DNA of 64,000 bases, from the NCBI RefSeq assembly GCF_009789575.1, contig NZ_CP046908.1:2521001-2585000 (forward strand). Direction: 5' to 3'. Positions 49,298 through 58,123 of this stretch are shown piece after piece. Position 1 is the first letter of the stretch. Each line of letters starts with the position of its first letter. The position numbers and the translations under genes were made by a program. The notes beneath the pieces were generated by a model that was not told where the DNA came from, ran no database searches, and saw nothing but the letters and a program-made list of their open reading frames with translations. Source of the DNA: Stappia indica. Its GTDB lineage: Bacteria; Pseudomonadota; Alphaproteobacteria; Rhizobiales; Stappiaceae.

Positions 49298-49837
49298 TTA
49301 TTTTTCGGAAAAACCGTCGAAATCCACGAAAGGAGCGCCAGATCCCGCCCGTTCGATCAGCCGCAGCAGGGCCCGGCGCAGCGTCTCCGTTTCCCCCTCG
49401 CCGATCGCCTCGACCAACCGCGCCTGATGTGCCTGCGCCTCGAGGATAAGTTCGTCGACATGCGCCTCGCCCGCCGGCGTCAGCCGCACCCAGACGCGGC
49501 GCCGGTCTTGCTCATCCGCCTGCCGCGCGACCAGCCCCTTGGCGACCAGCTTGTCGACGGTCTTGGAGATCGCCGGCTGGTTGGCAAGGCAGCTCTTCGC
49601 CAGTTCGCCGACGGTCAGCCCCTCGCCCGTCCCCTTCAGCGAGGCGAGGATGCGCCACACCGCCACCGGCACGCCGCGGGCCCGCACCTGCTCGTGGAAT
49701 TCCGCGCTTGCAACGCTGGAGGCCCGCGCCAGCAGATAGAGCAGATAGCCGTCGACGAAGCGCCCGGAGGCAGCGCCGGAAGCGCCTTCAGGCGGGCTGC
49801 CGGGGGACGGGCGGCTAGGTGCCGCAAGATCGGTCAT
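49298..49837 (-). CDS. MarR-family regulator of the catabolic module
   Basis: A 179-residue winged-helix protein: VPVAVWRILASLKGTGEGLTVGELAKSCLANQPAISKTVDKLVAKG is the recognition region and RQADEQDRRRVWVRLT the wing. MarR regulators (NicR, PicR) control known nicotinate and picolinate clusters, so its position beside a NicX-like gene suggests it senses the substrate or an early intermediate. GAGAG precedes the ATG at 49837. It is 10 nt downstream of the flavin reductase gene and shares its transcript. Confidence 0.88.
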   Translation of the reverse strand: MTDLAAPSRPSPGSPPEGASGAASGRFVDGYLLYLLARASSVASAEFHEQVRARGVPVAVWRILASLKGTGEGLTVGELAKSCLANQPAISKTVDKLVAKGLVARQADEQDRRRVWVRLTPAGEAHVDELILEAQAHQARLVEAIGEGETETLRRALLRLIERAGSGAPFVDFDGFSEK

Positions 49838-49847
49838 TGCACGCCTC

Positions 49848-50351
49848 TCATTCGGGCAGGGCGGCCGACGGGCCGGCATAGCTCGGGGTCGCGTAGCGCC
49901 CCGAATGATAGAGCAGCGGCTCGCGGTCCGCATGGTCGAAGGCCTCGACCCGCCCGAGGAAAACCAGGTGGTCGCCGCCCTCCACCCGGGTCGCGTTGAG
50001 GCACTCGAACACGGCGGTTACCCCCGCCAGCACGGGCACGCCGCACTGCCCCGGCTGCCACGAAACTCCAGCGAAACGGTCCTCCACCGGCCGCGCGAAC
50101 CGGTCGGACAGCGCCTGCTGATCGGACGCCAGGATGTTGACCGCATAGTGCCGGGACCGCTCGAAAACGGCGAGATTCTGCGATTTTCGGGCGAGACTCC
50201 ACAGCACCATCGGCGGGTCGAGCGAGACCGAGTTGAAGGAATTGGCCGTCAGCCCGACCGGCCGGCCGGCCTCGTCCAGCGTGGTGACGATGGTGACGCC
50301 GGTGACGAACCGCCCGAGGGCGCTGCGGAAGCTGCGGTGATCGCTCATCAT
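49848..50351 (-). CDS. Flavin reductase domain protein (HpaC-like)
   Basis: A 167-residue flavin reductase. Signatures are FRSALGRFVTGVTIVTTLDEAGRPVGLTANSFNSVSLDPPMVLWS, AVNILASDQQALSDRFA and GGDHLVFLGRVEAFDHAD. Such enzymes feed reduced FMN or FAD to a separate monooxygenase. No HpaB-type oxygenase is present; the acyl-CoA-dehydrogenase-fold protein of the divergent operon is the only candidate partner in view. AGGA lies 6 nt before the first of two adjacent ATGs. It is the head of the leftward reductase-marR transcript. Confidence 0.9.
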   Translation of the reverse strand: MMSDHRSFRSALGRFVTGVTIVTTLDEAGRPVGLTANSFNSVSLDPPMVLWSLARKSQNLAVFERSRHYAVNILASDQQALSDRFARPVEDRFAGVSWQPGQCGVPVLAGVTAVFECLNATRVEGGDHLVFLGRVEAFDHADREPLLYHSGRYATPSYAGPSAALPE

Positions 50352-50404
50352 GGCCCGTCCTCGTGCCTTCGGCTTGCGGAATGCCGGCGACCCGCCGCCG
50401 GCAA

Positions 50405-50475
50405 CAAGTTCATGCCTAAAAATATTCCTTTTCATACAATAACGAAATTGCTACGCTCCTCCAAGTTCTTTTCGC
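50405..50475. promoter_or_regulatory. AT-rich divergent promoter region of the catabolic module
   Basis: The gap between the divergent flavin reductase and NicX-like genes holds an AT-rich stretch (about 50413-50452, including AAAAATATTCC and ACAATAACGAAATTG) that stands out from the GC-rich surroundings. CAAT and ATTG halves occur as inverted copies around 6 nt. It is the natural place for both promoters and a MarR operator; individual boxes cannot be fixed. Confidence 0.45.
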
Positions 50476-50586
50476 TTGCTGCGAAAATTGCCCGCCCGGC
50501 GCAACAAAACGTCGGACGGCACGGATCTGGCCGTGCCGGACATCGGCGCGAAGCGATGGGCCGGGGCGGATCGGGAGGAGGATCTG

Positions 50587-51633
50587 ATGCTCGCCGACAG
50601 GATCGAGGGAAAGTGGATCGACGCCTTCGCGGCCGTCTTCACCCTCTGCAAGGTCGCGCCGGGGGAGAGTGTCGCAATCCTCTCCGAAACCCAGTCGCGC
50701 GCCCTCAACGTCCACATCGCGGAACTCGCCCTGCTGCGCCTCGGCGCCCGACCCTTTCACGTGGTCGTGCCGACGCCCCCGCAGGATGCGCCGGTGCCGG
50801 TGCGCTCGACCGGCGCGTCGGCCGCGCTCACCGGACAGGACGCGGCGATTGCCGCCCTTGCCGCCAGCGGCCTTGTCGTCGACCTGACGGTCGAAGGCCT
50901 GCTGCACGCGCCGGAGCTTCCGCGCATCATCGCGGGCGGCGCCCGCATGTTGATGATTTCAAACGAACATCCGGACGCGCTTGAGCGCCTGCTGCCGCAG
51001 CCACGCGACAAGGACCGGGTGCGAGAGGCCGTCTCCCGCATCCGTGTGGCGACCGAGATGACTGTCACCTCCGCCGCCGGCACGGACCTCAAGGTCGCCA
51101 TGAAAGGCGCCTCGACCGTCGGCGTTTGGGGCTGGTGCGACCGGCCGGGCTCCGTCGCCCACTGGCCGGCCGGCCTCGTCGTCAGCTTTCCCGCCGCCCA
51201 CAGCGTCAACGGCACATTGGTGCTGGATGCCGGCGACATCAACCTGACCTTCAAGCGCTATCTCGAGCGCCCGGTCCGCCTCACCATTGTCGACGACTAC
51301 GTGACGGCGATCGAGGGCGAAGGTACGGATGCCGAGCTGACCCGCCGCTATCTCGCCGCCTGGGGCGACAAGGAGGCCTATGCCGTCGCCCATGTCGGCT
51401 TCGGCATGAATGCCGGGGCACGCTACGAGGCGCTGACCATGTACGACCAGCGCGAGACCAACGGAACGGAAGTGCGCGCCTATTCGGGCAATTTCCTGTT
51501 CTCGACCGGGGCCAACGAGTTCGCCGGCCGCTTCACCAAGGGTCATTTCGACATCCCGGTGCGCGGCTGCACCATCGCGCTCGACGGCGAACCGGTGGTG
51601 GTGGACGGCGAGCTGATCGAGGCGCTGCGATGA
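50587..51633 (+). CDS. NicX-like 2,5-dihydroxypyridine 5,6-dioxygenase family protein
   Basis: A 348-residue protein resembling NicX of nicotinate degradation, an M29-peptidase-related Fe(II) extradiol dioxygenase of about 350 residues. As I recall them, NicX ligands are His265, His318 and Asp320; here His269 (AVAHVGFG), His320 and Asp322 (GHFDIP) match in order and spacing. HWPAGLVVSFPAAHSVNGTLVLDAGDI and AYSGNFLFSTGAN also agree with NicX. The alternative annotation, leucyl aminopeptidase, rests on fold only. The ATG at 50587 has AGGAGGA ahead and fits NicX length. Its stop overlaps the next gene. A related hydroxypyridine is the likely substrate. Confidence 0.8.
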   Translation: MLADRIEGKWIDAFAAVFTLCKVAPGESVAILSETQSRALNVHIAELALLRLGARPFHVVVPTPPQDAPVPVRSTGASAALTGQDAAIAALAASGLVVDLTVEGLLHAPELPRIIAGGARMLMISNEHPDALERLLPQPRDKDRVREAVSRIRVATEMTVTSAAGTDLKVAMKGASTVGVWGWCDRPGSVAHWPAGLVVSFPAAHSVNGTLVLDAGDINLTFKRYLERPVRLTIVDDYVTAIEGEGTDAELTRRYLAAWGDKEAYAVAHVGFGMNAGARYEALTMYDQRETNGTEVRAYSGNFLFSTGANEFAGRFTKGHFDIPVRGCTIALDGEPVVVDGELIEALR

Positions 51634-52433
51634 GCCGGCCCGACCACATCCGCAGGACCGGGGGCGAACGCGCCGTCGTGCTGCTGCACGGCATCGGCGC
51701 CGGCGCGGAGATGTTTGCGCCGCAGATCGAGGGGCTCGGCCGGGACCACGACACCATCGGCTGGAACCTTCCCGGCTACGGCAGCACCGCGCTGCTGTCG
51801 CCGATGACCTTCCCGGCCTTGTCTGCGGCCCTGCTCGCCTTTCTCGACCGGCTCGGGCTCGACCAGGTCGACCTGCTCGGGCACTCGATCGGCGGCATGC
51901 TGGCCCAGGACTTCGTCGCCCGCCATCCGAACCGCGTGCGCACCCTGGTTCTGTCCGCCACCACCGCCGCCTTCGGCAGCCGCGACGGCGAGTTCCAGAA
52001 GCGCTTCGTCGCCGAGCGGCTGGCCCCGCTCGATGCCGGACGGACGATCCCCGAGCTGGCCCGCGAATTCGTGCCGGATCTCGTCGGACCGGCCTGCGAC
52101 CCGGCCGCCGTACCAGTGGCCACCGCCGCCATGAGCCGGGTCCCGGAGGCTACCTATCGCGAGGCGATCCGCTGCCTTGCTACCTTCGATGCGCGCGACA
52201 CGCTGGCCGACATCGCCGTGCCGGTGCTGCTCGTCGCCGGCGAGGTCGACCGCAATGCCCCGGCCCCGACCATGCGCCGGATGGGCGAGAAGCTGCGCGA
52301 TGCCCGCTACGTGGAGCTGCCCGGCACCGGCCATCTGGCCCCGCTGGAATGCCCGCAAGCCTTCGAGGCCGCGCTCCGCGACTTCCTGAAACAGACCGAG
52401 ACCACACCGCCGCAAGAGGGAGCAGGCCGATGA
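51630..52433 (+). CDS. Alpha/beta hydrolase, candidate ring-fission product hydrolase
   Basis: A 267-residue hydrolase with oxyanion motif LLHGIGAG (18-25), nucleophile Ser86 in GHSIGG, acid Asp207 in LLVAGEVDRNAP and His235 in GTGHLAP. Relatives include 3-oxoadipate enol-lactonase and N-formylmaleamate deformylase (NicD). Next to a NicX-like dioxygenase the deformylase role is the more attractive: NicX yields N-formylmaleamate, which NicD cleaves to maleamate and formate. Overlaps of 4 nt on both sides (ATGA) show strict coupling. Confidence 0.85.
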   Translation: MSRPDHIRRTGGERAVVLLHGIGAGAEMFAPQIEGLGRDHDTIGWNLPGYGSTALLSPMTFPALSAALLAFLDRLGLDQVDLLGHSIGGMLAQDFVARHPNRVRTLVLSATTAAFGSRDGEFQKRFVAERLAPLDAGRTIPELAREFVPDLVGPACDPAAVPVATAAMSRVPEATYREAIRCLATFDARDTLADIAVPVLLVAGEVDRNAPAPTMRRMGEKLRDARYVELPGTGHLAPLECPQAFEAALRDFLKQTETTPPQEGAGR

Positions 52434-53701
52434 CCGTCGCCGATCTCGAGACGCTCGACATGGACAAGCCGATCTTCGATCCCAAGGCCTTCCGCCTGAC
52501 CGAGCAGGAGGAGGAACTGACCGCCCTCGCCCGCCGGGTGGCCAAGTCCCGCTTCGCTCCGCGCGCCGAGGCCATCGACCGCGACGCGGTGTTTCCGACG
52601 CAGAACTACCGCGACATGCACGAGACCGGCCTGCTCGGCATCTGCGTGCCCAAGGAGGACGGCGGCCACGGCGCACCGTTCCGCACCTACATGATGACGG
52701 CGGCCGAGATCGGTCGCTATTGCGGCGCGACGGCCCTGACCTGGAACATGCATGTCTGTTCCTGCCTGTGGACCGGCGCGCTGACCGACGACCTGGAAAT
52801 CGAGGCCGGCGAGCGCGAGCTGCATCGCCAGCGCCGTGCCGTCCACTATAAGCGCATCCTGGAAGACGGGGCTATCTACTCCCAGCCCTTCTCGGAAGGC
52901 GGCGCCGCCGCGGCCGGTGCCGCGCCCTTTTCCACCTCCGCCCGCAAGGTCGACGGCGGCTGGATCATCAACGGCAAGAAGATCTTCGCCTCCCTGTCCG
53001 GCCATGCCGATTATTACGGTATCCTCTGCGGCGAGATGAAGGAGGGCGAGCGCCCCTCGCGCCGCGACACGATGTATATCGCCGTGCCGGCGACGGCCGA
53101 GGGCGTCGAGGTGGTCGGCCCGTGGGATCCGCTCGGCATGCGCGGCACCGTTTCGCGCACCCTGCTGTTCAAGGATGTCTTCGTCTCCGAGGACGAGTCC
53201 CTGATGCCGCGCGGCGTCTACTACCAGGCGGCCAGCCGCTGGCCGCACATGTTCATGACCCTGTCGCCGACCTATATGGGCATCGCCCAGGCGGCCTTCG
53301 ACTTCACCGTGAAATACCTGCGCGGCGAATGGCCGGGCCTGCCGCCGGTCAAGCGGCGCATGTTCCCCACCAAGCAGATGGGCGTCGCCCAGATGCACCT
53401 GATGCTGGAGCAGACCAAGGCCCTGTGGTTCCATGCGATCACCGAGGCCGGTCCCGATCCCTCGCGCGAGCAGATGCTGCGCGCCTGGGCGGCCCATTAC
53501 ACGGTGATGGAGAACGCCAACGAGATCTGCCAGCTCGCCATCCGCACCTGCGGCGGCCAGTCGATGCTGAAGTCCCTGCCGCTGGAGCGCCTGTTCCGCG
53601 ACAGCCGCTGCGGCGCCCTGATGCTGCCCTGGACCGCCGAGATCTGCCTCGACCGGATCGGCCGGGAAAGCCTCTACCTGCCGGGAGAAACCGACGAGTG
53701 A
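52430..53701 (+). CDS. Acyl-CoA dehydrogenase-fold flavoprotein with atypical active site
   Basis: A 423-residue protein with the full ACAD architecture: helical N-terminus (GLLGICVPKEDGGHGA), a beta domain (YSQPFSEGGAA, WIINGKKIFASLSGHAD) and a C-terminal helical domain. Where ordinary enzymes have the catalytic base in YEGTSEIQ, it reads MLPWTAEIC (398-406), so the Glu is replaced. It may use another base, as isovaleryl-CoA dehydrogenase does, or be a flavin monooxygenase of the DszC type served by the divergent flavin reductase. It is coupled at both ends by 4-nt overlaps. Confidence 0.85.
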   Translation: MTVADLETLDMDKPIFDPKAFRLTEQEEELTALARRVAKSRFAPRAEAIDRDAVFPTQNYRDMHETGLLGICVPKEDGGHGAPFRTYMMTAAEIGRYCGATALTWNMHVCSCLWTGALTDDLEIEAGERELHRQRRAVHYKRILEDGAIYSQPFSEGGAAAAGAAPFSTSARKVDGGWIINGKKIFASLSGHADYYGILCGEMKEGERPSRRDTMYIAVPATAEGVEVVGPWDPLGMRGTVSRTLLFKDVFVSEDESLMPRGVYYQAASRWPHMFMTLSPTYMGIAQAAFDFTVKYLRGEWPGLPPVKRRMFPTKQMGVAQMHLMLEQTKALWFHAITEAGPDPSREQMLRAWAAHYTVMENANEICQLAIRTCGGQSMLKSLPLERLFRDSRCGALMLPWTAEICLDRIGRESLYLPGETDE

Positions 53702-55236
53702 CGTCGATCGACCACTGGATCGAGGCGCATGCGCGCTTCACCCCGGGAAAGACGGCGCTGGTCTTCGGCGACGAGCGGATCGACTACGCCGCTCTCGCCG
53801 ACCGCATCGGCCGGCTGGCCGGCGCGCTTGTGGCCCGCCACGGCATCAAGCGCGGCGAGCGGATCGCGTATCTCGGCACCAATTCGCCCGACCAGCTGCT
53901 GCTGACTTTCGCCGCCGCCCGGATCGGCGCCATCGTCGTACCGCTGAACTGGCGCCTTGCCCCGCCCGAGCTCTCGCACGCCCTCGCTGACAGCGGCGCA
54001 AGGCTCCTGGTGCACCAGCCCGATTTCGCGGCCACCCTTGCCGCGATGGCGACTCTCTCCCCGCTTCCCGAGCAGTTATTGGCCGACCCGGCAACGGGCG
54101 GGCTCGCCCACCAGGCGAGGGATGACGCGCCGCTCGGCCATGACGAGGGAGACGGCACGGCGCAGGATCCCCTGCTGATCGTCTACACCTCCGGCACGAC
54201 CGGCCGGCCGAAGGGCGCCGTGCTGACCCAGGCCGCCGTCGAGGCCAACGCGCTGAACGCCCTGCACATGCAGGAGATCACCGCCACTGACACGGTCCTG
54301 ACGGTGCTGCCGATGTTCCATGTCGGCGGGCTCAACATCCAGACGACGCCGGCGCTCTATGCCGGGGCGACGGTGATCCTGCACGACCGCTTCCACCCCG
54401 GCGCGACGCTCGCCGCGATCCGCGACCAGCGCCCCGACCTCACCGTGCTGGTGCCGGCAACGCTCGCCGCACTGATCGCCCATCCCGAGTGGGAGACGGC
54501 GGACCTTTCCTCCCTGCGCCTTGTCGCGACCGGTTCTTCCGACGTGCCGCACGCCCTGATGCGCGCCTTCGTCGACCGCGGCGTGCCGGTGCTGCAGGTC
54601 TATGGCGCGACCGAGACCGGACCGGTCGCGATCTACCAGCGCCGCGAGAACGTTGTCCCGGAATTCGGCGCCATCGGCCGGCCCGGCCTGCATACGAAGG
54701 CGCGCATCCGCATCGGCGAGCGCGACGCCCGCCCCGGCGAGATCGGCGAGATCGAGCTGAAGGGCGGCAACATCACGCAAGGCTACTGGAACAACGAGAC
54801 GGCAACGGCCGACACGTTCCGCGGCGGCTGGTTCCGCACCGGGGACCTTGCCCTTTGCGACGAGGCCGGCGTCTTCTGGTTCAAGGACCGCTTGAAGAAC
54901 GTCATCATCTCCGGCGGCGAGAACATCTATCCGGCCGAGCTGGAGCGGGTGCTCGGCGAGATCGCCGACTTGAGGGAGGCCGCAGTGGTCGGCATTTCCG
55001 ATCCGCGCTGGGGCGAAAGCCCCGTGGCGGTGGTGGTTGCGGAACCCGGCCGGGAGGTCACCGCCGAGGCGGTGCTGGCAGGGTTCGACGGACGTCTGGC
55101 GCGCTACAAGCACCCGAAATCCGTCGTCTTCACGCAGGAGCTGCCGCGCAATGCGCTCGGCAAGATCCAGCTGGAAAGGGTCAGGAAAATAGCCGAGGAT
55201 GCGCTCAATGCGTCCGGCAAGAAGCAAAGCGCCTGA
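53698..55236 (+). CDS. AMP-dependent acyl-CoA synthetase/ligase
   Basis: A 512-residue ANL-superfamily ligase. The phosphate loop YTSGTTGRPKG lies at 163-173. YGATE, the WFRTGDL aspartate, LKNVIISGGENIYPAE and the acyl-adenylating lysine in NALGKIQ follow in order. It activates a carboxylic acid to its CoA thioester; the acid is unknown but is presumably imported by the adjacent TRAP system or made in the pathway. The start is a GTG overlapping the preceding stop (GTGA at 53698-53701). The longer open frame upstream lies inside the ACAD gene and is rejected. Confidence 0.92.
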   Translation: MTSIDHWIEAHARFTPGKTALVFGDERIDYAALADRIGRLAGALVARHGIKRGERIAYLGTNSPDQLLLTFAAARIGAIVVPLNWRLAPPELSHALADSGARLLVHQPDFAATLAAMATLSPLPEQLLADPATGGLAHQARDDAPLGHDEGDGTAQDPLLIVYTSGTTGRPKGAVLTQAAVEANALNALHMQEITATDTVLTVLPMFHVGGLNIQTTPALYAGATVILHDRFHPGATLAAIRDQRPDLTVLVPATLAALIAHPEWETADLSSLRLVATGSSDVPHALMRAFVDRGVPVLQVYGATETGPVAIYQRRENVVPEFGAIGRPGLHTKARIRIGERDARPGEIGEIELKGGNITQGYWNNETATADTFRGGWFRTGDLALCDEAGVFWFKDRLKNVIISGGENIYPAELERVLGEIADLREAAVVGISDPRWGESPVAVVVAEPGREVTAEAVLAGFDGRLARYKHPKSVVFTQELPRNALGKIQLERVRKIAEDALNASGKKQSA

Positions 55237-55267
55237 CCGGAACAAGAACCAGACAGAGGGGACTGAA

Positions 55268-56281
55268 ATGCGGAAATTCATCGGGATGCTGACCGCGGTC
55301 GCGGCACTTGGCCTCGCCACTGCCGCCTCCGCCGAGACCACCTTGCGCGTGTCCAACTGGCTGCCGCCGTCCCACCCCATCGTCAAGGACATCCTGGCCC
55401 CCTGGGGCGAGCAGGTGGCCAAGGCGACCGACGGACGCGTCAAGGTCGAGATCATGGCCGCGCCGATCGGCAAGCCGCCGGCACAGTTCGACCTGATCCG
55501 CTCGGGCGCGGCCGATGTCGGCTATGGCGTGCATGGCTACACGCCCGGCCGCTTCAAGCTGACGCCGCTGGTCGAGGGGCCGTTCCTGTCCGATAGCGCC
55601 GAGGCGCTGTCCGTCGCCTACTGGAAGGTGCAGGAGGCGATGCTCTCCAAGGCCGACGAGCATGAGGGCGTCAAGCTGCTCACCGTCTTCACCCATGGTC
55701 CCGGCGGCATCTACACGACCACCAAGAAGGTCGCCTCGGTCGACGACCTTGCCGGCCTGAAGATGCGCATCGGCGGCGGCATCGTTGCCGAGATCGCCTC
55801 GCGGCTCGGCATGGTCGGCGTGCAGGCCCCCTCGCCGCAGGTCTACGAGATCCTCGCCAACGGCGTCGCCGACGGCATCCTGTTCCCGCCGGAGTCCGTG
55901 CCCTTCTTCCGCATCGACGAAGTCATCCGCAACGGCGTCTCCGTGCCGGGCGGCCTCTACAACACCTCATTCTTCGTGGTGATGAACCGCGGCGCCTGGG
56001 ACAAGCTGTCGGATGAGGACAAGGCCGCCATCGACAGCGTGTCGGGCGAAGCCATGGCCCGCATGGCCGGCCAGGCCTGGGACGCGGCCGACGCGGCCGG
56101 CGTCAAGGTGATGGAGGACAAGGGCGTCGCCCAGACCACCGCCGACGAGGCCATGACCGCCGCCATCGCCGAGAAGCTCGCCGGTGTCGAGAAGGGCTTC
56201 CTCGACGCGGCCTCCGCCGCCGGCATCGATGGCCAGGCGGCCATCGACATGCTCAAGGCCGAGATCGCCGCGGCGAAATGA
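55268..56281 (+). CDS. TRAP transporter solute-binding protein (DctP type)
   Basis: A 337-residue periplasmic receptor with a signal peptide (about residues 1-22, cleavage after ASA). The DctP fold shows LRVSNWLPPSHPIVKDILAPWGEQV, GRVKVEIMAAPIGKPPAQFDLIRSG, LAGLKMRIGGG, and the conserved Arg of that last segment, which binds the ligand carboxylate in the family. The ligand is therefore probably a carboxylic acid. AGAGGGGAC precedes the ATG at 55268; it starts 31 nt after the ligase and its stop overlaps dctQ. Confidence 0.93.
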   Translation: MRKFIGMLTAVAALGLATAASAETTLRVSNWLPPSHPIVKDILAPWGEQVAKATDGRVKVEIMAAPIGKPPAQFDLIRSGAADVGYGVHGYTPGRFKLTPLVEGPFLSDSAEALSVAYWKVQEAMLSKADEHEGVKLLTVFTHGPGGIYTTTKKVASVDDLAGLKMRIGGGIVAEIASRLGMVGVQAPSPQVYEILANGVADGILFPPESVPFFRIDEVIRNGVSVPGGLYNTSFFVVMNRGAWDKLSDEDKAAIDSVSGEAMARMAGQAWDAADAAGVKVMEDKGVAQTTADEAMTAAIAEKLAGVEKGFLDAASAAGIDGQAAIDMLKAEIAAAK

Positions 56282-56787
56282 CCGGCGAACCCCGCGACGG
56301 CGCGACCGGCGGGGGCGCCAGCCCCTTCCGGCCGCTCGCCGCGGCGACGCGCCTCCTCCAGCTCGTCGCCGCGCTGCTGCTGCTGGTGATGATGGCGGTG
56401 ACCTTCGTCGACGTCATCGGCCGCTACGTGTTCAACAGTCCGCTGCCCGGCGCCTTCGAGCTGACCGAGGTGCTGCTGGCGCTCGTCGTCTTCGTCGGCC
56501 TGCCGATCGTCACCGCACGGCGGGAGCATGTCACTGTCGACCTTCTCACCGGCCGGCTTCCGGGCCGTCTCCGGCAGGGTCTTGCCCGGGCAGCGCTGGC
56601 AGTGACCGCCGGCGTGCTGGCGGTGTTTGCCTGGCGGCTGGCGCTTCTGGGCCGCGACTACAGCTCCTATGGCGATGCCACGGTCTATCTGGGCATCCCG
56701 CTCGGGCCCGTCGCCGTCGCCATGGCGGTGCTGGCCGGGATTTCCGCGCTCGTCGCCGCCGTTCTCATCCTGCGCCGGCAGCCCTGA
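56278..56787 (+). CDS. TRAP transporter small permease (DctQ type)
   Basis: A 169-residue membrane protein with four hydrophobic helices. MMAVTFVDVIGRYVFNSPLPGAFELTEVLLALVVFVGLPIVT is the DctQ signature, and YSSYGDATVYLGIPLGPVAVAMAV corresponds to the last two helices. It forms the membrane part with DctM. The ATG overlaps the receptor stop (ATGA). The large permease follows after 43 nt. Confidence 0.93.
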   Translation: MTGEPRDGATGGGASPFRPLAAATRLLQLVAALLLLVMMAVTFVDVIGRYVFNSPLPGAFELTEVLLALVVFVGLPIVTARREHVTVDLLTGRLPGRLRQGLARAALAVTAGVLAVFAWRLALLGRDYSSYGDATVYLGIPLGPVAVAMAVLAGISALVAAVLILRRQP

Positions 56788-56830
56788 GCGGGCCGCCTCG
56801 TCCACCTCCCCGAGGGACCTTCGCAAGACC

Positions 56831-58123
56831 ATGGAAACCTGGCTTCCCGGCCTCGTCATTCTCGTCGTCGTGATGTTCGCGGGCGTGCCGATCGCCGTCG
56901 CCATGGCCGCCGTCGGCGGCCTCGGCCTGACGATGATCCTCGGCTTCGCCCCGGCCATGGCGATGGTCGGACAGACCACGTTCGACACCGGCCTTTCCTA
57001 CCCGCTGTCGGTGGTGCCGCTCTTCGTGCTGATGGGCAATCTCGTCACCCGAGCAGGCCTCTCCGACGAGCTCTACGCCGCCTGCCACGCCTGGCTCGGC
57101 CATCGCCGCGGCGGCCTTGCCATGGCGACCGCCGTTGCCTGCGGCGGCTTCTCCGCGGTCTGCGGCTCTTCGCTCGCCACCGCCGCGACCATGGGCAAGG
57201 TCGCCCTGCCGCAGATGCGCCGCTACAAGTACGACGACGGGCTGGCGAGCGGGGTGATCGCGGCCGGCGGCACGCTCGGCATCCTGATCCCGCCCTCCGT
57301 GATCCTGGTACTCTACGGCGTCACCGCCCAGCAGGACATCGCCAAGCTGTTCATCGCCGGCATCATTCCCGGCATTCTCGGCATCCTCGGCTACATGGCC
57401 GCCGTCTGGCTGGTCTGCTGGCGGCGCCCCGAAGCCGGCCCGCCGGCCGAGCGCCTGCCCTATCGCGAGCGCTTCCGCGCGCTTGCCGGCGTTGCCGGCA
57501 TCACCGCCCTGTTCGCGCTGGTGATCGGCGGCATCTATGCCGGCATCTTCACCGCAACGGAGGCCGCCGGCATCGGCGCCAGCGGCGCCTTCGTGATCGC
57601 GCTGGCCCGCCGCCGGCTGACCCTCGCCACCCTGCTGGAGACGCTGAGCGATACGGCCGCCACCACGACGATGATGTTCATGGTGCTGATCGGCGCGCTG
57701 ATCTTCTCCAACTTCGTCAACATCGCCGGTCTGCCGGCGGCGCTCTCGGGCATGGCGGCCGCCTCCGACCTGCCGCCCTGGGCGATCCTGCTCGCCGTGC
57801 TCGGCGTCTATCTCTGCCTCGGCATGGTGCTGGAAAGCCTGTCCATGGTGCTGCTCACCGTGCCGATCTTCGCACCGATGATGGCGGCCCTCGGCTACGA
57901 TCTCGTCTGGTTCGGCATCGTCGTCGTGGTGGTCACCGAAATCAGCCTGATCACACCGCCGGTCGGCCTCAACGTCTTCGTGCTGAAGACGGTGATGCCG
58001 GACGTGCCGCTCGGCCGGATCTTCCGCGGCATCGTGCCGTTCATCCTGGCCGATATCGTCCGCCTGGCGCTGATCGTCGCCGTGCCCTCGCTGGTGCTGC
58101 TGCTTCCCGGCCTGATGCGCTGA
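56831..58123 (+). CDS. TRAP transporter large permease (DctM type)
   Basis: A 430-residue, roughly 12-helix permease of the IT superfamily that carries out Na+-driven solute uptake. Conserved blocks are VPLFVLMGNLVTRAGLSDELY, GGFSAVCGSSLATAATMGKVALPQM, AGGTLGILIPPSVILVLYG and VVVVTEISLITPPVGLNVFVLK. The ATG at 56831 matches the usual N-terminus; the frame is open further upstream only within dctQ. It is the last recognisable gene of the module, followed by 575 bp without a clear gene. Confidence 0.94.
   Translation: METWLPGLVILVVVMFAGVPIAVAMAAVGGLGLTMILGFAPAMAMVGQTTFDTGLSYPLSVVPLFVLMGNLVTRAGLSDELYAACHAWLGHRRGGLAMATAVACGGFSAVCGSSLATAATMGKVALPQMRRYKYDDGLASGVIAAGGTLGILIPPSVILVLYGVTAQQDIAKLFIAGIIPGILGILGYMAAVWLVCWRRPEAGPPAERLPYRERFRALAGVAGITALFALVIGGIYAGIFTATEAAGIGASGAFVIALARRRLTLATLLETLSDTAATTTMMFMVLIGALIFSNFVNIAGLPAALSGMAAASDLPPWAILLAVLGVYLCLGMVLESLSMVLLTVPIFAPMMAALGYDLVWFGIVVVVVTEISLITPPVGLNVFVLKTVMPDVPLGRIFRGIVPFILADIVRLALIVAVPSLVLLLPGLMR

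Follow-up and report, generated by a model that had tools for sequence, protein, structure and literature searches.

A conserved gene block around a NicX-superfamily dioxygenase in Stappia indica, a candidate peripheral route into anthranilate catabolism

Here we describe nine compact genes at positions 49298-58123 of a 64,000-nucleotide stretch of the Stappia indica genome (RefSeq assembly GCF_009789575.1, contig NZ_CP046908.1, positions 2,521,001 to 2,585,000; the window), part of a single 5.1-Mb contig. Two minus-strand genes, for a MarR-type regulator and a flavin reductase, diverge from seven plus-strand genes for a dioxygenase, an alpha/beta hydrolase, a flavoprotein of the acyl-CoA dehydrogenase (ACAD) fold, an AMP-forming acyl/aryl-coenzyme A (CoA) synthetase, and the TRAP transporter components DctP, DctQ, and DctM (Table 1). 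We think it rather probable that they form a peripheral pathway funneling an aromatic, probably nitrogen-containing, carboxylic acid into the 2-aminobenzoyl-CoA pathway of anthranilate catabolism. The analysis gives a genomic context to a widespread sister clade set apart from NicX, whose members in soil and marine bacteria lie in a putative hydroxylase-dioxygenase-hydrolase block tied to anthranilate catabolism.

The dioxygenase matched Pseudomonas putida NicX (7cn3; E=2.4e-58) in a search against solved structures, with an alignment spanning residues 13-344 of 348 and about 38% identity over 328 aligned positions. It alone among the nine proteins had no hit in Pfam (E up to 0.001) or NCBIfam (E up to 0.01). 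The M29 peptidase model PF02073 had no match across the whole genome at E 0.001; given this and the NicX homology, an M29 aminopeptidase identity was rejected, in agreement with an earlier reading made from the sequence only, which had called the enzyme NicX type. According to passages of PMC7910607, NicX binds iron through His265, Ser302, His318, and Asp320, all of which are kept here (Table 1, in the same order), and its pocket residues Leu104, His105, His189, and Arg293 are conserved as well. Glu177, which with His189 contacts the O1/N side of the substrate and with Glu308 forms the polar side of the pocket (PMC7910607, same passages), is replaced by Val180, and Glu308 is replaced by Phe312.

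These substitutions extend to the whole clade. Among 100 aligned sequences, 10 are NicX-type (P. putida NicX, seven loci with nic/ndp-like context, and L128 and L129, classed by tree placement only; loci and genomes carry our numbers, L and G), 85 belong to the window clade, and 5 are others. Both glutamates are present in 10 of 10 NicX-type rows and either one in 0 of 85 window-clade rows, in which position 177 is Val (48), Gly (12), Ile (11), Ser (5), Asn (5), or Thr (4) and position 308 is Phe (53), Val (14), or another residue (18). The four iron ligands are retained in 83 of the 85 rows, the exceptions being L051 and L107, the latter cut and poorly aligned. The five others (L117, L120, L122, L126, and L127) all carry Gln177, and four also carry Glu308; they fall in neither group. 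In a tree of 94 rows, built by a quick method with Shimodaira-Hasegawa approximate likelihood ratio test (SH-aLRT) support only and with long branches flagged for L117, L130, L120, L093, and L089, the window clade comprises 79 rows, its stem measuring 2.1 changes per site (SH-aLRT, 100); L130 and four plasmid loci that carry a glutamine-synthetase-like gene, or are close kin of such loci, are among them. By homology and ligands, the protein is an Fe(II) enzyme of the NicX superfamily, but NicX proper was rejected because the clade is separate and the polar pocket residues are lost. Loss of both glutamates, mostly with gain of Val and Phe, would suit a fused benzene ring in the substrate.

NicX-type dioxygenases in nic/ndp-like clusters on Pseudosulfitobacter and Rhizobium plasmids (L118 and L119) are annotated "leucyl aminopeptidase", and window-clade members in Aminobacter and Ensifer (L111 and L112) are annotated "peptidase M29"; such annotations of NicX relatives should be revised. 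Further NicX relatives (L120 and L122) lie outside nic clusters, near HpaB-type hydroxylases, flavin reductases, and amidase or isochorismatase-family genes, surroundings that may represent other uncharacterized ring-opening pathways. One homologue in a Pseudomonadales metagenome-assembled genome (MAG; L106, 10001-11060) is split in two frames, sequencing error and decay being undistinguished.

A scan of named genomes, many of them MAGs, yielded 86 dioxygenase relatives, of which 80 loci were kept, spanning Alpha-, Beta-, and Gammaproteobacteria and Acidimicrobiia; close relatives are favored because the search patterns were derived from the window dioxygenase. Neighbors were counted within 8 kb in the 47 loci that extend 7 kb or more to each side of the dioxygenase, with identity cut-offs of 25% (hydrolase), 40% (ACAD), and 38% (synthetase). 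The ACAD was found in 40 loci, the hydrolase in 40, both in 39, and both plus the synthetase in 34; a MarR gene was found in 29, a flavin reductase in 22, and TRAP genes in 14. Without the Stappia set of 13 loci (L030-L039, L041, L042, and L108), the respective counts out of 34 are 27, 27, 26, 21, 16, 10, and 1. The dioxygenase-hydrolase-ACAD-ligase block, which recurs in Alpha-, Beta-, and Gammaproteobacteria, is conserved as a unit and not by chance, which supports the sequence-only reading. The same reading's idea that a dedicated TRAP transporter is a fixed part of the unit did not hold (14/47, and 1/34 outside the Stappia set), yet TRAP genes adjoin the block in L148-L150, three of the seven loci taken from further genomes of the order, and some related loci have NMT1/THI5-type ABC genes. 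The dioxygenase is carried by all 14 genomes of the genus examined, and relatives whose dioxygenase is 97-99% identical are named Stappia.

Five loci (L045, L047, L086, L093, and L096) have the dioxygenase, hydrolase, and ACAD and no relative of the window ligase in the mapped stretch, which lends no support to an earlier suggestion that CoA activation precedes oxygenation. Opine-dehydrogenase-like and 3-hydroxyacyl-CoA dehydrogenase-like clusters each accompany the block in 11 of the 80 loci and are regarded as accessory because this genome holds no close relative of either (28 and 30% full-length hits). At three loci of Acidimicrobiaceae MAGs (L081, L082, and L088; Pfam was run on L081), the dioxygenase is flanked by arginase-family and aminotransferase genes, and a type-2 ACAD but no synthetase is present, which may reflect a different use of the clade. 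On the Aminobacter plasmid pAA02 (L111, 5263-14694), the block is joined by a gentisate/5-aminosalicylate-dioxygenase-like cupin, a fumarylacetoacetate hydrolase-family protein (FAH), a C-N hydrolase, a glutamine-synthetase-like gene, and, further along, an APC permease; the same unit may here open the ring of a hydroxylated amine, for example a 5-hydroxyindole.

The tie to anthranilate comes from neighborhoods and from co-occurrence. The curated name of NCBIfam model NF006101 is salicylyl-CoA 5-hydroxylase/oxidoreductase, and a 770-residue protein exceeds its cut-off in L060 and L064. We take this protein to be 2-aminobenzoyl-CoA monooxygenase/reductase, in part because its neighbors in L060 or L064 include a short-chain dehydrogenase/reductase (SDR), RidA, an enoyl-CoA hydratase, and a benzoate-CoA-ligase-family protein. 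NF006101 or its cluster genes adjoin the block in 3 of the 80 loci: L060, where the NF006101 gene and the dioxygenase stand in tandem, 35 nt apart; L064; and L084, which has the ligase, ACAD, hydratase, and RidA of an NF006101-type cluster. Among the seven loci fetched from the order, the block lies directly beside an NF006101 cluster in L145 and L146 and beside only the SDR and hydratase of such a cluster in L147. The kynurenine-pathway genes kynU, TDO, and kynB occur near the block in L097, L099, and L107 (of 80), and TDO occurs near it in L148 (of 7). The S. indica genome itself has an NF006101 cluster at about 4.70 Mb (L141), in which SDR, MarR, hydratase, ligase, and RidA relatives surround the NF006101 gene, and, at L131, adjacent kynU, TDO, and kynB-like genes. 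The 2-aminobenzoyl-CoA pathway of the Azoarcus evansii type thus adjoins the block in several lineages and forms a separate cluster in Stappia, while the block lies outside the steps described in passages of PMC4539516.

Among the 219 genomes compared within the order, 23 of 24 dioxygenase-positive and 46 of 195 negative ones hold NF006101 (E up to 1e-200); over the curated cut-off the counts are 20/24 versus 40/195, and by genus they are 12/13 versus 26/93. These tests are not phylogeny corrected. The dioxygenase is rarely found without NF006101 and NF006101 often without the dioxygenase, the pattern expected of a peripheral pathway feeding a central one. Several observations weigh against this interpretation. 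The control gene pcaH (TIGR02422) is also enriched (21/24 versus 76/195), so lifestyle explains part of the co-occurrence, but the NF006101 link persists within pcaH-positive genomes (20/21 versus 33/76; P=9e-6), and the pcaH link within NF006101-positive genomes falls short of significance (P=0.13). One dioxygenase-positive genome (G110) lacks NF006101, the matches to this model in G132, G198, and G262 are below cut-off or partial, and in the genome of L147 (G196) the match lies on another contig. The name of NF006101 refers to salicylyl-CoA, so the central pathway might be of the salicylate type, although the kyn and RidA genes would favor an amino compound. The joint presence of block and NF006101 cluster in L064 would also fit a parallel branch. 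Lastly, L103 (27-9844) holds a molybdopterin hydroxylase about 7 kb from a dioxygenase cut by the contig end, with a ligase, SDR, RidA, and histidine kinase beyond the MarR gene. The module as Stappia's basic anthranilate pathway was not favored, because the NF006101 cluster lies elsewhere in the genome, and TDO co-occurrence within the family was set aside as weak and phylogenetically confounded (22/22 genomes with a dioxygenase of at least 72% identity versus 50/65 others).

The ACAD-fold protein and the flavin reductase most likely form a two-component hydroxylase, judging from three features: the usual catalytic glutamate is missing, the reductase adjoins, and an FAD hydroxylase replaces the pair in a paralogous locus. 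The 42 other family members compared are 44-91% identical to the window protein. At the catalytic column, ordinary ACADs from L141-L143 read YEG and the window protein reads M-L-P, with Leu at the Glu position, and the MLP-T motif is invariant in the 43 family sequences; near positions 254-256, the window has Phe-Met where L141-L143 have Phe-Arg. The catalytic Glu of acyl-CoA dehydrogenases is residue 376 of the medium-chain enzyme (MCAD) or residue 254 of the isovaleryl enzyme (IVD); it was found at neither site in the alignment, which was of sequences only. Among sequences in the PDB, the ACAD comes nearest to 5gj7 and 5z8t (E=1.3e-50), titled "putative Acyl-CoA dehydrogenase" and "Flavin-containing monooxygenase", respectively. 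For the reductase, the best NCBIfam model is component C1 of p-hydroxyphenylacetate 3-hydroxylase (HPAH; E=7.2e-62, below the full-length cut-off), and the C1 structure ranks second among its structure matches; the window flavoprotein falls in another branch of the ACAD fold and matches the HPAH oxygenase model at no better than E=3.7e-12.

The hydroxylase assignment rests mainly on the swapping of hydroxylases at dioxygenase loci. L130, a second, paralogous locus in another genome of the genus, has a dioxygenase 49% identical to that of the window, a hydrolase, a YCII protein, a TRAP system, and an FAD aromatic-ring hydroxylase (PF01494 and PF21274), with no relative of the window ACAD, reductase, or ligase. 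Among loci without a window-type ACAD, a type-2 ACAD lies near the dioxygenase in L081 and a luciferase-like monooxygenase in L092. At the place corresponding to the reductase, L065 (8924-9886) encodes a reductase-MarR fusion, as do L102, L148, and L149 by length and residues. The fused MarR domain keeps the aromatic-carboxylate clamp described below; besides binding DNA, or in place of it, the domain may detect the substrate on behalf of the reductase.

Among solved structures, the MarR protein is closest to 3CDH and to Variovorax MarR_73 (IadR), which binds indole-3-acetate. Passages of PMC9613470 list carboxylate contacts at Ser28, His32, and Arg46 and indole contacts at Tyr15, Ala18, Trp45, Arg46, and Val65. 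The window protein keeps Ser28, His32, Arg46, Trp45, and Tyr15 as Ser44, His48, Arg62, Trp61, and Tyr31, and this Y-S-H-W-R set recurs in 34 of 41 module MarRs and in 0/3 abm and 0/3 nic-context MarRs, which are distant and less surely aligned. Since these clamp residues are kept, the inducer is probably an aromatic carboxylate; an indole acid would be a guess, and against it stand the replacement of Ala18 by Tyr34 and of Val65 by Ser82 and the absence of the clamp from 7 of the 41 proteins (L048, L054, L061, L068, L094, L096, and L098). The transporter is complete by Pfam, and the closest solved structure to DctP is 4p56 (E=3.3e-91), which is presumably mandelate bound and for which no paper was found. 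A carboxylate-type sensor and transporter, in keeping with the sequence-only reading, are supported. The hydrolase, which shares the broad fold of NicD, is proposed to act in a deformylase-like manner on the ring-cleavage product.

In the pathway that we propose, the TRAP system would import the aromatic acid, and MarR would sense it and de-repress the divergent operon. The flavin reductase would supply the ACAD with reduced flavin, and the two would add a hydroxyl group to the ring, the NicX-fold Fe(II) dioxygenase would cut the ring next to it, and the hydrolase would strip an acyl or formyl part from the cleavage product. The synthetase, placed last in this suggested order, would form the CoA thioester that enters the 2-aminobenzoyl-CoA pathway, whose genes lie at another site of the genome. 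The substrate class that we weakly favor is an indole-type acid. 3-Hydroxyindole shares an HO-C=CH-NH unit with 2,5-dihydroxypyridine, in which NicX cleaves the C-C bond to give an acid and an N-formyl group; the same cleavage of 3-hydroxyindole would give N-formylanthranilate, from which the NicD-like hydrolase would release anthranilate and the ligase would make 2-aminobenzoyl-CoA. This scheme would use every enzyme gene of the operon and account for the dependence on NF006101. It is conceivable, if rather unlikely, that enzymes of the clade use mononuclear non-heme iron to open the pyrrole ring in substrates of the 3-hydroxyindole type and that the operon is a third aerobic route from indole acids to anthranilate beside iac and iad, in which Stappia would rely on the TRAP transporter for import and on an IadR-like MarR for sensing. 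To our knowledge, such ring opening is so far ascribed to heme dioxygenases (TDO/IDO) and cofactor-free enzymes. Were the substrate an indole acid, the operon would represent a new means of degrading auxin-type signals.

The module resembles the known indole-acetate systems in several respects. Its MarR protein is close to IadR, clamp included, its ACAD-type flavoprotein and flavin reductase parallel IacA and IacG, and its proposed end product, anthranilate, is that of iad (passages of PMC9613470, PMC11676955, and PMC12633357). The Rieske oxygenases IacCD/IadDE, however, have no counterpart in the window operon by Pfam, and the operon has a NicX-fold dioxygenase, of which the cited iac/iad passages make no mention. 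The module as iac or iad was rejected for want of Rieske subunits in the operon; TIGR03228, the large subunit of anthranilate 1,2-dioxygenase, had no match in the genome at E 1e-80, a search that leaves room for IadDE elsewhere. No paper describing this gene block was found in the open-access full-text literature, which was covered in part.

A carbocyclic para-aminophenol or hydroquinone acid is an unlikely substrate, though the likeliest among the alternatives. Here the ACAD and reductase would 5-hydroxylate anthranilate or salicylate, free or as the CoA ester, and the dioxygenase would cleave 5-hydroxyanthranilate or gentisate, in a branch parallel to 2-aminobenzoyl-CoA monooxygenase and not upstream of it. 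The tandem in L060, the loss of polar pocket residues, the cupin and FAH beside the block in L111 (below both cut-offs), and the single FAD aromatic hydroxylase at L130 are all consistent with it. The separate NF006101 cluster in Stappia would, however, make a second anthranilate route redundant, and 40 of the 47 covered loci retain a hydrolase relative close to the dioxygenase (25% identity cut-off) although a carbocycle yields no formyl product. If 5-hydroxyanthranilate is the substrate, the block would constitute a new ring-cleavage route.

It is quite improbable that the flavoprotein is a true acyl-CoA dehydrogenase, the ligase and ACAD degrading an aliphatic acid after ring cleavage and another enzyme hydroxylating the ring. 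The predicted model (pLDDT 89.6) has the ACAD fold, structure comparison ranks ordinary acyl-CoA dehydrogenases first, and fold and family E-values are nearer dehydrogenases than most monooxygenases, which counts against a hydroxylase, as does the absence within 8 kb of the ACAD from 7/47 and of the reductase from 25/47 covered loci. The 3-hydroxyacyl-CoA dehydrogenase-like cluster, of which the one member scanned against NCBIfam (L056) exceeds the PRK08269 cut-off, would also suit a dehydrogenase. The fold alone does not settle the role of the ACAD; the Leu-Pro at the Glu column in an invariant motif, the divergently linked reductase, and the alternative oxygenases in L130, L081, and L092 all argue for the two-component hydroxylase.

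A carboxylated monocyclic hydroxypyridine, taken up by TRAP, converted to a CoA thioester, oxygenated, and ring opened, as the sequence-only reading had supposed, is likewise quite improbable: NicX homology, a hydrolase suited to deformylation, the carboxylate-type regulator and TRAP, the molybdopterin hydroxylase of L103, and a loss of Glu177 that could also fit an N-substituted pyridine speak for it, but Glu177 and Glu308 are lost in 85/85 clade members, neighbors and co-occurrence point to kynurenine and 2-aminobenzoyl-CoA catabolism, and no relatives of NicC, NicD, NicE, or NicF were found in 94 loci at 35% identity and 60% coverage with one Azospirillum locus as the query. The absence of nic partner genes noted in the sequence-only reading was thereby supported at these cut-offs, and of the N-heterocycle module first suggested the general idea is partly supported while a monocyclic pyridine is unlikely. 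Compared with NicX and NdpE, the 2,5-dihydroxypyridine 5,6-dioxygenases of the nic and ndp clusters, the window enzyme is homologous over nearly its full length, keeps the iron ligands and four pocket residues, and differs in its long stem and the loss of both glutamates in all members seen; maleamate amidase, maleate isomerase, NicD, and NicC are absent from the operon by Pfam, the hydrolase being NicD-like only in broad fold. Homarine (N-methylpicolinate), the subject of a 2026 paper cited in a passage of PMC13390433, is given low weight, although its N-methyl group would explain the lost Glu177.

Coordinates are collected in Table 1. All nine genes from MarR to DctM that were first read from the sequence are present, and the tight spacing of the seven-gene run also stands, but the count of close junctions is corrected from five to six of six, each being a 4-nt overlap or a gap of at most 43 nt. 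The MarR and reductase genes are 10 nt apart.

Table 1. Features of the Stappia indica gene block (window positions)
Feature	Position	Strand	Basis or remarks
MarR-type regulator	49298-49837	-	Pfam and NCBIfam matches, comparison with solved structures
Flavin reductase, HPAH-C1-like	49848-50351	-	Pfam/NCBIfam
AT-rich conserved intergenic block	50416-50480	none	9 Stappiaceae sequences
NicX-fold Fe(II) dioxygenase, putatively ring cleaving, separate clade	50587-51633	+	NicX homology; ligands His269, Ser306, His320, Asp322
Alpha/beta hydrolase	51630-52433	+	Ser86, Asp207, His235; proposed role
ACAD-fold flavoprotein without usual catalytic Glu	52430-53701	+	Putative oxygenase
AMP-forming acyl/aryl-CoA synthetase, GTG start	53698-55236	+	Pfam/NCBIfam
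DctP, TRAP solute-binding protein	55268-56281	+	Pfam
DctQ, TRAP small permease	56278-56787	+	Pfam
DctM, TRAP large permease	56831-58123	+	Pfam/NCBIfam

The flanking genes, judged by eye, look ordinary and are presumably hisC- and metX-like on the left and leuC-like on the right. A sigma-70 promoter scan found 0 sites versus 0.6 expected. The AT-rich block between the divergent starts is almost invariant among the aligned Stappiaceae sequences and contains an imperfect palindrome, TTTCATACAATAACGAAA, at 50430-50447, a candidate MarR operator or promoter site.

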